In this document: piece by piece, positions 3,227 through 51,257 of the stretch
Layout of the letters: each line of letters starts with the position of its first letter
Position numbering within the stretch: position 1 is the first letter of the stretch
Assembly (NCBI RefSeq): GCF_014395785.1
Contig: NZ_CP060713.1
Location: 3,872,501 to 3,936,500 of the forward strand
Reading direction: 5' to 3'
DNA from: Nocardioides mesophilus
GTDB lineage: Bacteria; Actinomycetota; Actinomycetes; Propionibacteriales; Nocardioidaceae
DNA length: 64,000 bases
The notes under the pieces: generated by a model
What the model was told of the DNA's origin: nothing
Databases searched by the model: none
The model's input: only the letters and a program-made list of their open reading frames with translations
Position numbers and translations under genes: made by a program

Positions 3227-4615
3227 ATGCCTGAGACGAAACGGATCAACAAGACCCTCGACCTGGCGCTGCGCGTCGGGGAGGTGCTGCTCTCCTCCGG
3301 AGCCGGCGCCGCGGACGTCAACGCCACGATGTGGTCGGTGGTGCATGCCTGCGGCCTGCGCGGCGTCGACGTGGACGTCACCTTCACCGCGCTCACCGTC
3401 ACCCACCAGACCGTCGACGACGAACCGCCGCGGATCGCGGTGCGCCACGTCCGGCACCGCGAGATCGACTACGAGGACCTGACCGAGGTCGACCACCTCG
3501 TGCGCGACCTGATCTCCGGTCGGATCGACCTCGACGAGGCCCGCGCGCGGCTGGCCCGGATCGTCTCCTCCGGTCACCGGCGCCCCCGCTGGGCGGCCAC
3601 CCTCGCCAACGGCGTGATGGGCGCGGGGGTGGGGTTGCTGCTGGGCGGCAACTGGCTGCTGATCGGCATCGCCTTCGTCGCCGCGGTGCTCATCGACCGG
3701 TTGATGAGGGCGATGAGCCGCCGGCGGCTGCCCGGCTTCTACCAGCAGGTGGCCGGCGGTCTGGTGGCCACGCTGCTGGCGGTCGGCACCGCGGCCGCCG
3801 GGGTGTCCACCGACCCCTCGATGGTGGTGACCGCCAGCATCATCATGCTGCTCGCCGGGATCGGGTTCATGGGGGCGGTGCAGGACGCGCTGACCGGGTT
3901 CCCGCTCACCGCGGGCGCGCGGATCCTGGAGGCCATGCTCGCCACGGCGGGGATCATCGCCGGGGTGAGCGGCGGGCTGGCGATCGGGGACATGCTGGGC
4001 GTGGACCTCGGCCGGCTCGATCCGGGCGCGAGCTCGCTCACCGACCTCGGAGCCGTCGTGGTGGGGTCGGCGGTGGCGGCGGGCGCGTTCGCCTACGCCT
4101 CCTACGCGCCGCTGCGGACGATCGCGCCGATCGCGCTGATCGCCGGGGGCGCCGCGCTGGTCTTCACCGGCGTCGAGGCGCAGGGCGTCGGCCGGGCCTG
4201 GGCGGCGGCGTCGGCGGCGGTGCTGATCGGGGTGGTCTCCTACTCGGCGGCCGGCCGGGTCCGGGTGCCGCCGCTGGTGGTGGTGGTCTCCGCCATCGTC
4301 CCGCTGCTGCCCGGGCTGTCGATCTACCGCGGGCTGGCACTGCTCGGGATGGGCGGCAACGGCATCCTGTCGCTGATCAACGCCGTCGCGATCGCGATCG
4401 CCCTGGCCTCCGGGGTGCTGCTCGGCGAGCACTTCGCCCAGCCGCTGAAGCGGGAGGCCCGGCGGCTGGAGGACCGGCTCGCCGGTCCCCGGCTGGTGGG
4501 TCCGTTGCGCGCCCGGACCGTCAGCCGCGGTCGGCGTCACCCCGGGGAGCGTCCGGAGGAGCGTGCAGAGGCGCGGTCGGGGGAGCCGGCAGCCGGCTCA
4601 GCCAGGACCGGCTGA
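3227..4615 (+). CDS. Threonine/serine exporter family protein (ThrE-like)
   Basis: 462 aa. The N-terminal half (ThrE, DUF1212) starts with a conserved amphipathic segment (TLDLALRVGEVLLSSGAGAADV) and contains the hydrophilic block VTFTALTVTHQT; about ten hydrophobic helices follow, e.g. GVMGAGVGLLLGGNWLLIG, VTASIIMLLAGIGFMGAVQD and, in the C-terminal ThrE_2-like half, VVVVSAIVPLLPGLSIYRG. Fused two-part exporters of this kind use the proton motive force to export threonine and serine in Corynebacterium. The ATG at 3227 is preceded by GGAG 12 bp upstream; an ATG at 3137 would add an unlikely arginine-rich leader that lies over the terminator. The 3' end overlaps the convergent DUF402 gene by 95 bp. 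Confidence 0.85.
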   Translation: MPETKRINKTLDLALRVGEVLLSSGAGAADVNATMWSVVHACGLRGVDVDVTFTALTVTHQTVDDEPPRIAVRHVRHREIDYEDLTEVDHLVRDLISGRIDLDEARARLARIVSSGHRRPRWAATLANGVMGAGVGLLLGGNWLLIGIAFVAAVLIDRLMRAMSRRRLPGFYQQVAGGLVATLLAVGTAAAGVSTDPSMVVTASIIMLLAGIGFMGAVQDALTGFPLTAGARILEAMLATAGIIAGVSGGLAIGDMLGVDLGRLDPGASSLTDLGAVVVGSAVAAGAFAYASYAPLRTIAPIALIAGGAALVFTGVEAQGVGRAWAAASAAVLIGVVSYSAAGRVRVPPLVVVVSAIVPLLPGLSIYRGLALLGMGGNGILSLINAVAIAIALASGVLLGEHFAQPLKREARRLEDRLAGPRLVGPLRARTVSRGRRHPGERPEERAEARSGEPAAGSARTG

Positions 4616-5099
4616 CCTGCCCGTCGTACGGCGGCCGGCGGGAGGTGACCGCGGCGTGCACCCGCTCGCACGAGGCGGTCGCCAGCCGCACCACGTCGGC
4701 CGGGTAGCCGAAGCGCACCCGGTGGTCGGCGAACTCGTCCTCGTCGTCGATCCAGACCCGCCCGGTGCGGCCGCGGACCACGTCGAGGTCCAGGTCGACC
4801 ATCGTGACCGTCGCGTCCGCCCAGACCGGGATGGTCGTGATGTCGACGTACACCTCGACCCAGCCGGCGGGCAGGTCGGTGGCGCCGTGGGCGTAGAAGG
4901 TCGCCACGAAGGCCCCGTCGCGCGGCACCAGCGCGGTGAAGCCGAGCGGAGTGTGGTACTCGGCGCCCGGGCGGCTCACCCGGGTGCCGGCCGGCGCGCC
5001 CAGCCAGGTGCCGTGCTCGTCCTCGCCGAGCCGGATCGCGTCGTACTCCCAGTGCGGTCGTCCGCCCCACTTCGTGAAGCTCACCCGGGCCTCGTGCAC
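4521..5099 (-). CDS. DUF402 domain protein
   Basis: 192 aa from a GTG start. The DUF402 barrel is recognisable: HWEYDAIRLGEDEHGTWLG, then GFTALVPRDGAFVATFY, WVEVYVDITTIPVW and TMVDLDLDVVRGRTGRVWI with the acidic DEDEF pocket. DUF402 proteins include nucleoside phosphatases and RNA-associated nucleases, so a nucleotide or RNA substrate is plausible but unproven. Residues after about 155 (RPPYDGQVSRSW onward) are low-complexity and overlap the end of thrE on the other strand by 95 bp. The start is supported by TAGGAT 6 bp upstream of the GTG. A second DUF402 protein lies at 43572. Confidence 0.8.
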   Translation of the reverse strand: MHEARVSFTKWGGRPHWEYDAIRLGEDEHGTWLGAPAGTRVSRPGAEYHTPLGFTALVPRDGAFVATFYAHGATDLPAGWVEVYVDITTIPVWADATVTMVDLDLDVVRGRTGRVWIDDEDEFADHRVRFGYPADVVRLATASCERVHAAVTSRRPPYDGQVSRSWLSRLPAPPTAPLHAPPDAPRGDADRG

Positions 5100-50171: not shown

Positions 50172-50184
50172 CCCGGCCGCGGCG

Positions 50185-50271
50185 GCATTTCAACAGGAAG
50201 GTCTGCCCGCGCCGGGTCGAGCTGAGCGTAGACCGGGGCATGAGCGCCCCGGTCTGCCTGTCGAAATGCCC
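50185..50271. repeat. 87-bp palindromic unit downstream of glyA
   Basis: GGCATTTCAACAGG (50185-50198) pairs with CCTGTCGAAATGCC (50258-50271) with one mismatch, and encloses a perfect 10-bp hairpin AGACCGGGGC/GCCCCGGTCT (50231-50256, loop ATGAGC). It begins 13 bases after the glyA stop and can act as its terminator. The outer motif recurs at 51244. Confidence 0.8.
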
Positions 50272-50310
50272 GCCTGTGGATGACGTCCGACGTCGAGCGG
50301 CGGGGCGCGC

Positions 50311-50316
50311 CAGACT
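50311..50316 (+). promoter_or_regulatory. -10-like box CAGACT
   Basis: CAGACT, 6 bp before the ATG at 50323, identical in sequence and spacing to the box before dinB at 1347-1352. Confidence 0.4.
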
Positions 50317-50322
50317 CGCGCG

Positions 50323-51207
50323 ATGACCGTCACCCAGGTGCTGCACCGGCTCGGCGGCGTCGCCAGCCGCAAGGTCCTCGTGCGGACCACCTCGCGCAAC
50401 CAGCTCCGCCGAGCAGTCGCTCGTGGCGAGGTCGTGCGCGACGCGCACGGCCGCTACGCCCTCCCCGTCGCCGACGAGGCGTTGCGTGCGGCGAACCGCC
50501 TCAGTGGCGTCGTCTCGCACCGCAGCGCCGCGCTGCACTGGGGCTGGGAGGTGAAGACGGTTCCGAAGCGACCGGACGTGACCATCCGCAGGAAGCGGCA
50601 CCTGGCTGCACATCAGGGCGACGGCATCGAGGTGCACTGGTACGACGTGCCCTCCGACGCCGTGGTCGGCGTCGTCACGTCGCCGGAACAGACACTGGTG
50701 GACTGCATGCGCGGGCTGCCGTTCGACGAGGCGCTCGCCGTCGCCGACTCGGCGCTGCGCCATCGCCACATCACCAAGGCGCGCCTGATCGAGCTCGCCG
50801 ACTCGGTCAGGGGGCCGGGCGCACGCCAGGCTCGCCGCGTGGCGAGGGCGGCGACACATCTGGCGGCCAACCCGTTCGAGTCGGTCTTGCGCGCGATCGG
50901 TCTCGACGTACCCGGGCTGCACCTGGAGACGCAGGTGGTGATCTCCGACAAGGAAGGCCGCGGCCGCGCCGACCTGGTCGACCGCGAACGTCGCTGGGTC
51001 GTGGAGGCAGAGTCGCACTCGTGGCACAGCAAGCGCGGCGCGCTGAGGCGCGACTGCCGCCGCTACACGAAGCTGACGCTGCTCGGGTGGCGCGTGCTCA
51101 GGTTCGCCTGGGAGGACGTGATGTTCCACCCGGACTACGTCCGGGACTGCCTGCTCGCGGCGGCCGAGGTGGCAGATCGACAGGCACGATGCGCCTGCGG
51201 CGCGTAG
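50323..51207 (+). CDS. AbiEi-antitoxin-like / DUF559 (PD-(D/E)XK fold) protein
   Basis: 294 aa. The N-terminal 70 residues resemble the winged-helix AbiEi-type antitoxin domain (LHRLGGVASRKVLVRTTSRN, RGEVVRDAHGRYALP); the middle has SGVVSHRSAALHWGWEV and VTSPEQTLVDCMRGLPFDEA; the C-terminal domain, NPFESVLRAIGL, GRGRADLVDRERRWVVEAES and RRDCRRYTKLTLLGWRVLRF, is a DUF559/Vsr-like endonuclease fold with D and E-x-E type residues. No AbiEii toxin gene follows. The gene is enclosed by inverted repeats and is the clearest accessory-type gene in the window. Confidence 0.82.
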   Translation: MTVTQVLHRLGGVASRKVLVRTTSRNQLRRAVARGEVVRDAHGRYALPVADEALRAANRLSGVVSHRSAALHWGWEVKTVPKRPDVTIRRKRHLAAHQGDGIEVHWYDVPSDAVVGVVTSPEQTLVDCMRGLPFDEALAVADSALRHRHITKARLIELADSVRGPGARQARRVARAATHLAANPFESVLRAIGLDVPGLHLETQVVISDKEGRGRADLVDRERRWVVEAESHSWHSKRGALRRDCRRYTKLTLLGWRVLRFAWEDVMFHPDYVRDCLLAAAEVADRQARCACGA

Positions 51208-51243
51208 ATCGCCGCCTGAATGGCCGCCGGCGGGTCTGATCTG

Positions 51244-51257
51244 CCTGTTGAAATGCC
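51244..51257. repeat. Right-hand inverted repeat CCTGTTGAAATGCC
   Basis: Perfect complement of 50185-50198, located 36 bp after the stop of the DUF559 gene. Confidence 0.85.

Follow-up and report, generated by a model that had tools for sequence, protein, structure and literature searches.

The closest described counterparts of the locus reported here are the REPIN-RAYT systems, to whose way of working, as set out in the available portions of the relevant papers, it can be compared (PMC3116915, PMC3733652, PMC8049555). In the portions of two of these papers that bear on the comparison (PMC3116915, PMC8049555), a helper gene is flanked by repeats tied to it, inverted doublets of the repeat are dispersed intergenically, several arm types exist, each with its own helper, the units outlast the helper, and the helper is found at one orthologous site in several species; the system described below resembles them in these respects. 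The RAYT helper is a Y1 HUH tyrosine transposase, and a GTAG tag lies at the repeat end. Two further groups of proteins are relevant. Within the part of PMC7319586 that was available, AbiEi of the AbiE type IV toxin-antitoxin systems binds two inverted repeats of 23 bp that are separated by 3 bp; Rv2827c binds two pairs of inverted repeats with 13 bp between the members of a pair. The Vsr-like EDxHD homing endonucleases are encoded within their own recognition site, which the gene splits. Our analyses suggest, at a probability that we put at roughly 60%, that the locus belongs to a REPIN-RAYT-like two-part system run by an unrelated enzyme, in which a protein reads the arms of short palindromic units and its nuclease starts the copying of those units.

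The window, the 64,000-nucleotide stretch of DNA that was analyzed, carries the gene in question as a single gene between glyA-like and aidB-like neighbors, names that we take over from a preliminary description of the same DNA (Table 1). That description reported a 14-bp sequence, GGCATTTCAACAGG, in inverted orientation on either side of the gene, with a further one-mismatch copy internal to the pair and a perfect 10-bp hairpin inside an 87-bp upstream unit. The repeats and the hairpin are real, although two of the repeat coordinates were off by one (50184 and 50257 are correct). The gene is likewise bracketed by palindromes, but by two complete units rather than by one inverted pair, as a fourth copy of GGCATTTCAACAGG with three mismatches completes a second 87-bp unit downstream. 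The two units thus have four arms in total, two inverted arms per unit, and the downstream one overlaps the 3' end of the gene. When U1 is compared with reversed U2, the outer arm bases agree at 29 of 32 positions and the interior bases at only 22 of 55. Simple inverted-repeat ends of a single insertion were rejected as an explanation, given the full two-arm unit on each side.

Table 1. Positions in the window of the gene, its two flanking palindromic units and their parts.
Feature	Position	Strand	Details
Upstream palindromic unit U1, 87 bp	50184..50270	.	arms 50184-50200 and 50254-50270
14-mer GGCATTTCAACAGG, exact copy	50184..50197	+	
Central motif of U1	50221..50229	+	GCTGAGCGT
Perfect 10-bp hairpin inside U1	50230..50239 and 50246..50255		
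14-mer, one-mismatch copy	50257..50270	-	
AbiEi-like plus Vsr/I-Bth0305I-like gene	50323..51207	+	294-aa protein
Downstream palindromic unit U2, 87 bp	51171..51257	.	arms 51171-51186 and 51242-51257
14-mer, copy with three mismatches	51171..51184	+	
Stop codon of the gene	51205..51207		TAG, inside U2
Stop region	51205..51219		next in-frame stop, TGA, in CGCCGCCTGA
14-mer GGCATTTCAACAGG, exact copy	51244..51257	-	

In the complete one-contig genome (4,488,624 bases, 4.49 Mb) the 14-mer occurs four times at up to one mismatch, three of them at this locus; the reversed-pattern control gave no match in the same genome at the same threshold. The fourth occurrence forms one arm of an 87-bp unit that stands alone (G000:C1:364482-364568), the only solo unit that this search identified; its center reads GCTGAGCGTG, a feature also present in U1 as GCTGAGCGT, and no tRNA was found next to it. 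Within the window alone, five matches at up to three mismatches compare with a shuffle mean of 1.39, and 3 of 100 shuffles reach five. The window-only repeat count is thus weakly above chance, and the strong evidence comes from comparison between loci. The gene ends in TAG, which is followed three codons on by an in-frame TGA within CGCCGCCTGA, a region that resembles the stop region of the two paralogs described below, and for this reason the C-terminus of the window copy may be slightly shortened.

The preliminary description had assigned AbiEi and DUF559/Vsr-like domains to the gene product, and profile matches and fold comparison agree on both: residues 1–178 are AbiEi-like and residues 181–286 resemble the Vsr and I-Bth0305I nucleases. 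An AlphaFold2 model of the protein (mean pLDDT 95.8) matched S. agalactiae AbiEi in its N-terminal part (6y8q_A; Z 10.3, rmsd 4.3 over 173 residues) and, in its C-terminal part, an uncharacterized gonococcal endonuclease-like protein (Z 13.4), I-Bth0305I (Z 13.2) and Vsr on DNA (Z 11.0). TnsA (Z 7.0) and Rv2827c (Z 6.4) were also recovered, at scores that a shared arrangement alone can explain. Among 70 family members searched against Pfam at E 0.001, MTES_1575 was matched by 64, DUF559 by 53, AbiEi_4 by 13 and AbiEi_1 by one, with no other match. The PADLOC AbiEi models recognized the window protein at a best E of 2.3e-10, and the protein fell far short of the NCBIfam vsr cut-off (14.1 vs. 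97.85 bits). Six residues (E186, D217, E228, H235, D244, and R247) are invariant in the 70-member alignment. As modeled, then, the gene product joins an AbiEi-like DNA binder to a Vsr/I-Bth0305I-like nuclease whose active site is invariant.

This architecture relates the locus to two known groups and sets it apart from both. The two-domain AbiEi fold of residues 1–178, the length of the inverted arms (~22 bp in the genus g28 treated below, compared with 23 bp) and the presence of one unit upstream of the gene are as in AbiE systems, so far as the available part of PMC7319586 describes them. The AbiEi module is here fused to a nuclease, however, a second unit lies downstream and further units lie genome-wide, and by inspection of the neighborhood no AbiEii (DUF1814) toxin gene was recognized beside the window gene. 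The nuclease fold (Z 11–13) and the conserved acidic and histidine residues are shared with Vsr and the EDxHD enzyme I-Bth0305I, from which the present gene differs in standing free between two other genes, with no intron or intein seen around it, and in carrying the AbiEi module.

Two further clear copies of the gene exist in the window genome (protein identity 66 and 51%), and each sits between palindromes of its own, different arm sequence. Homologs were identified in 21 of 58 genomes and in 144 of 294 family genomes, the window genome being included in both counts, and intact homologs numbered 129/144; some of the contigs that bear them are named Nocardioides (Nocardioidaceae). A plasmid or phage origin of the gene was rejected, as at E 1e-5 a homolog was found in none of 72,556 plasmid records, a single one of the 50,697 phage records had one (on a faecal contig that is unverified), and viral contigs gave two weak partial matches. 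The phage record (L150, MT837367.1, positions 3882–4703, labeled "Bacteriophage sp.") encodes a 49% homolog with a palindromic unit downstream and may be a bacterial contig.

To characterize the surroundings of the gene across the family we used 114 loci: the three of the window genome, 28 from the 58-genome search, 23 from the 294-genome search and 60 more taken in rank order among the matches listed for the latter search. The longest repeat common to the upstream and downstream flanks averaged 14.4 bases at these loci; mismatched flanks averaged 9.8, and those taken 1 kb away 10.0. Palindromes that share arms were present on both sides at 62 of the 114 loci, whereas mismatched pairs gave this pattern in 17 of 339 cases and far flanks in 2 of 112. 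This bears out the proposal that gene and palindromes form a module; the two-sided test was not passed by 52 loci. At several loci of one Nocardioides-group type the arms contain CGTAG. Plain terminators were rejected as the sole explanation, as the arms of any one locus agree with each other but not with those of other loci. The mean arm similarity score is 4.8 where the proteins are 30–40% identical, rises to about 12 where identity exceeds 70%, and is 14.3 within a locus; for the 54 loci with clear units the Mantel correlation between arms and protein was 0.298, a value reached in none of 999 permutations. By these measures the arms are specific to the gene and diverge along with its protein. 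A comparison of 4 with 14 proteins found no residue that separates two type-A specificities.

These observations bear on the possibility that some other enzyme (an IS transposase or a RAYT elsewhere) moves the units, which would then be MITE- or REP-like elements of an ordinary kind, with the DUF559 genes as passengers. Units do persist in genomes without a matching gene, as described below, and no target-site duplication was found from which the acting enzyme could be told. Against this, the gene copies of one genome differ in arm type, arm type co-diverges with the protein, and the numbers of type-B genes and units go together (below), so that we regard movement by another enzyme as improbable.

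The preliminary description had likened the palindromes to REP sequences, and the comparison is apt, the palindromes being dispersed in the genomes of relatives. Among 196 genomes of genus g7, which we take to be Nocardioides, an exact 77-bp unit type is present in 11, with up to eight copies in one genome, some of which flank a gene. The richest material came from 38 genomes of g28, presumably Kribbella, a genus of another family related at the level of the order. As paired units, the stem CACTCACCAA (type A) was found in 28 of these genomes (up to 21 units in one), CACTGACCAA in 10 (up to 18) and GCCATCACAA (type B) in 20 (up to 34). Reversed-pattern controls of the 77-bp search and of all three stem searches gave zero throughout. 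The g28 searches required both arms to be exact, so that the counts are lower bounds and arm agreement is not demonstrable from them. A stem-blind pattern gave 37 matches in 12 genomes, several evidently by chance, and its control one. Dispersal of the module as proposed in the preliminary description thus holds for the palindromes, with up to 34 per genome, and less so for the gene, whose type-A form has one orthologous site in four g28 species.

The consensus of the type-A arm, from 50 units, is CGGACCtgCnCCACTCACCAACC. A TGAGCGTG-like motif lies near the middle of 29 of these units, the remaining interior being variable, and the type-A consensus in g28 is without GTAG, the tag at the end of the REPIN-RAYT repeat. 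When one unit per genome was measured between the outer ends of its 10-base arms, with 60–90 bp allowed, 22 of 28 type-A units were 80–81 bp long, four were 69–70 bp and two were 90 bp; unit lengths thus step by one helical turn, as for helical phasing. The placement of the units is also distinctive: 39 of 87 start between -12 and +15 nt from a stop codon, compared with 67 of 729 mostly intergenic random stretches, and 20 of 87 overlap a coding-like frame, as do 3,919 of 5,100 random stretches when judged in much the same way. By a stricter count, 3 of 50 type-A units overlap such a frame.

A fixed orientation of the central motif was rejected, the upstream units having it 12 times in plus and 12 times in minus orientation (38 unclear); for downstream units the counts were 24 plus, 6 minus and 32 unclear. 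The idea that the unit acts as a long RNA or single-strand hairpin was also rejected, inner spacer pairing being 247 vs. 253 expected (P 0.70). The outer part of the arms has a small left-right correlation (351 vs. 324, P 0.001), possibly from relatedness, and four loci searched against Rfam gave no match.

A type-A and a type-B unit can adjoin each other, as at G054:C4:144358-144537 and G360:C1:1639772-1639946, the type-B core in G054 beginning nine bases past the end of the type-A unit, which suggests shared landing gaps. At one locus (L408, G359:C137, positions 440–921) a type-B unit occurs as three tandem repeats with a 207-base period.

The number of dispersed units follows the resident gene, clearly for type B and weakly for the two other stems. 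A gene match was obtained in 36 of the 38 g28 genomes (that of G371 being a fragment only), and after 11 fragments or contig-edge cases were removed from 90 loci, 59 of the remaining 79 had shared-arm units on both sides; 20 failed the two-sided test, and besides the 59 a further 11 had a clear palindrome on a side. All 13 genomes with a GCCATCACAA gene have at least nine solo units of this type (G359 was placed in this group by hand, its gene lying near a contig edge and two flanking type-B units being present), whereas 18 of the 25 genomes without the gene have no solo units and two (G383 and G381) have at least nine. This association gives a Fisher p of 1.9e-8 with relatedness ignored; on the same footing it is weaker for CACTCACCAA (p 0.005 with exact stems, 0.08 under a looser rule) and for CACTGACCAA (p 0.06). 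When 30 of the 38 genomes are placed on a tree built from one gene, type-B genes and units alike are confined to one half. Within that half, G359, with the gene, has 32 type-B units vs. 4 in G362, which has no such gene, and G376, with the gene, has 34 vs. none in G378, which is without it; G383 is a contrary case, with 19 type-B units and no such gene. G381 has 11 type-B units without a matching gene, G367 has 12 type-A units with no gene found, and G368 has neither. The expectation of the preliminary description that gene and repeats belong together is hence borne out as a tendency: the gene usually has its units (62/114 loci; 59/79 in g28), although 52/114 and 20/79 loci fail our test, and dispersed units tend toward the stem of the resident gene, with exceptions such as G367.

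Comparison of orthologous sites indicates both persistence and mobility. A type-A gene occupies one orthologous place in four g28 species (G365, G048, G370, and G046), and at the corresponding site of G371 (L182, 1303–1580) a single unit and the initial 42 codons of the gene are all that is left, a case that illustrates how a unit can outlast its gene. At a first orthologous unit site, G043 and G046 have C as base 5 of both arms where G382 has G; at a second, G043 again has C and G382 has G. This difference between G043/G046 and G382 matches the arms of the resident genes. By these alignments units are long-lived in place, both arms changing together. At the first site the room between the flanks in three other genomes is too small for a unit (G366, 44 bases; G359, 52; G375, 24), G362 has 92 bases in which no unit was seen, and G051 has another palindromic sequence. 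In one case (L269 of G364, the ortholog of the L258 unit) the outer ends are kept and the interior has been swapped for other nested palindromes.

Copying of discrete pieces is indicated by two pairs of units at unrelated sites of G359, which agree inside at 84 of 92 (L404/L405) and 85 of 92 positions (L406/L407) and at 5–12 of 28 per flank. Similarly, seven type-A units of G359 and G362 agree at 0.82–0.94 in their arms, 0.63 in their interiors and 0.29–0.30 in their flanks; these pairs and the seven units were chosen for their alike interiors and show existence, not frequency. No target-site duplication was found in 11 copies, the longest direct repeat at the edges, whose ends are approximate, being 2–3 nt. 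The aligned sites and copies show units gained or lost as discrete pieces. The interiors of most units within one genome look unrelated, which suggests that most copies are old.

The chief rival to a nuclease-driven system draws on the same data. The units could be domesticated binding sites kept by selection for a host function (autoregulation, chromosome organization, or control of mRNA 3' ends or termination), the nuclease not moving them and any movement being rare or due to another enzyme. Orthologous units that persist across species, with arms that track the resident gene and interiors that drift, would be expected of such sites, as would the unrelated interiors of most units within a genome and their placement just behind stop codons; AbiEi proteins, moreover, autoregulate through 23-bp inverted repeats, according to the available part of PMC7319586. 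However, near-identical discrete copies at unrelated sites and the contrast of occupied with unoccupied sites show that units also move, many units are at 3' ends and not at promoters, save for the gene's own upstream unit, and the active site of the nuclease is invariant. We therefore consider a purely domesticated role unlikely, though the strongest of the alternatives.

The glyA-aidB site itself was examined in four same-genus genomes (G001, G003, G004, and G005), none of which has the gene between the glyA- and aidB-like neighbors. Their gaps are 96, 744, 47, and 106 bases long, respectively, and approach the window 14-mer no more closely than 4–6 mismatches of 14. The empty locus envisaged by the preliminary description is accordingly found in part: gene and arm type are absent from all four, but only the G004 gap, in which a palindrome of unit size is absent, is truly bare. 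The gaps of G001 (L123), G003 (L122) and G005 (L129) have palindromic stretches of 55–70 bases with other sequences, perhaps terminators or else units of another type. At the window locus, 12 and 22 bases are left outside the two units, similar to the entire G004 gap, and because of this the units seem to mark the boundaries of the extra DNA there. The glyA-aidB gap of a further genome (L124, G029) contains a near-perfect palindrome of different sequence with arms of ~23 bases, which may be a terminator or another unit type.

These gaps also permit an assessment of whether the gene is a free-standing homing-endonuclease-like gene of the EDxHD/Vsr class, spread by homing, with the palindromes as its recognition sites. 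The nearness of the nuclease domain to I-Bth0305I (Z 13.2), the patchy presence of the gene (144/294 family genomes, and absence from the same-genus glyA-aidB sites) and the palindromes of other sequence in three of the four empty gaps are in keeping with homing. Yet the window arm type occurs in none of the four gaps (4–6 of 14 mismatches) and G004 is without a palindrome; two intact units flank the gene, where a homing enzyme of this class would leave one split unit; and the type-A gene stays at one orthologous place in four g28 species. We consider homing very improbable, and slightly more so than movement by another enzyme.

We return to the two-part system that we prefer, which would comprise a one-gene protein, with an AbiEi-type DNA-binding module and a Vsr-like nuclease domain, and short palindromic units. 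The units, of ~57–107 bp, consist of two inverted arms of 16–23 bp and, between them, an interior that varies and in many cases has a TGAGCGTG-like motif at its center. They represent non-autonomous mobile DNA that can be copied alone into intergenic gaps, often right behind a stop codon, and each gene typically lies between two units that have its own type of arm. We infer that the protein binds the arms, that it cuts, and that cutting drives the copying: the AbiEi-like module would read arms of its own type as double-stranded DNA, two bound protomers on the same helical face would span the pair of inverted arms, and the nuclease domains would nick or cut within the unit and so start its copying. 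Protein and arms would co-evolve as a result.

Set beside the REPIN-RAYT systems, the g28 genomes likewise have a gene flanked by a repeat type that is dispersed in the genome (13/13 for type B, weaker for type A and CACTGACCAA) and dispersed inverted doublets, with discrete copies in selected examples. They differ in that the helper is an AbiEi plus Vsr-like nuclease and not a Y1 HUH tyrosine transposase, in a spacing quantized by ~10 bp as for duplex DNA, in the central TGAGCGTG-like motif, in the lack of the GTAG tag from the type-A consensus, and in numbers, with tens of copies at most in exact-arm searches. We do not file the system under REPIN-RAYT because its enzyme is not the defining one. 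To a broader statement we would give even odds, namely that these elements constitute a class of miniature mobile palindromes driven by a non-HUH nuclease, in which an AbiEi-type module is the address reader of a Vsr-like nuclease, paired duplex arms lie on one helical face, 57–107-bp units are copied behind stop codons and helper and arms co-evolve, as an independent counterpart of REPIN-RAYT in Actinomycetes.

In the mostly open-access literature that we searched, we found no assigned role for AbiEi-DUF559 fusion genes and no report that ties DUF559 or AbiEi-Vsr genes to dispersed palindromes, although such fusions are present in about half of the family genomes searched (144/294). If the reading proposed here is true, these fusions would serve as helpers to a system of dispersed repeats whose evolution was separate from that of the RAYTs, and the REPIN way of life would have arisen more than once, with different chemistry. 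The arm-protein pairs also supply dozens of naturally occurring variants in the specificity of an AbiEi-like reader with a nuclease attached, through which its recognition code can be tested directly.
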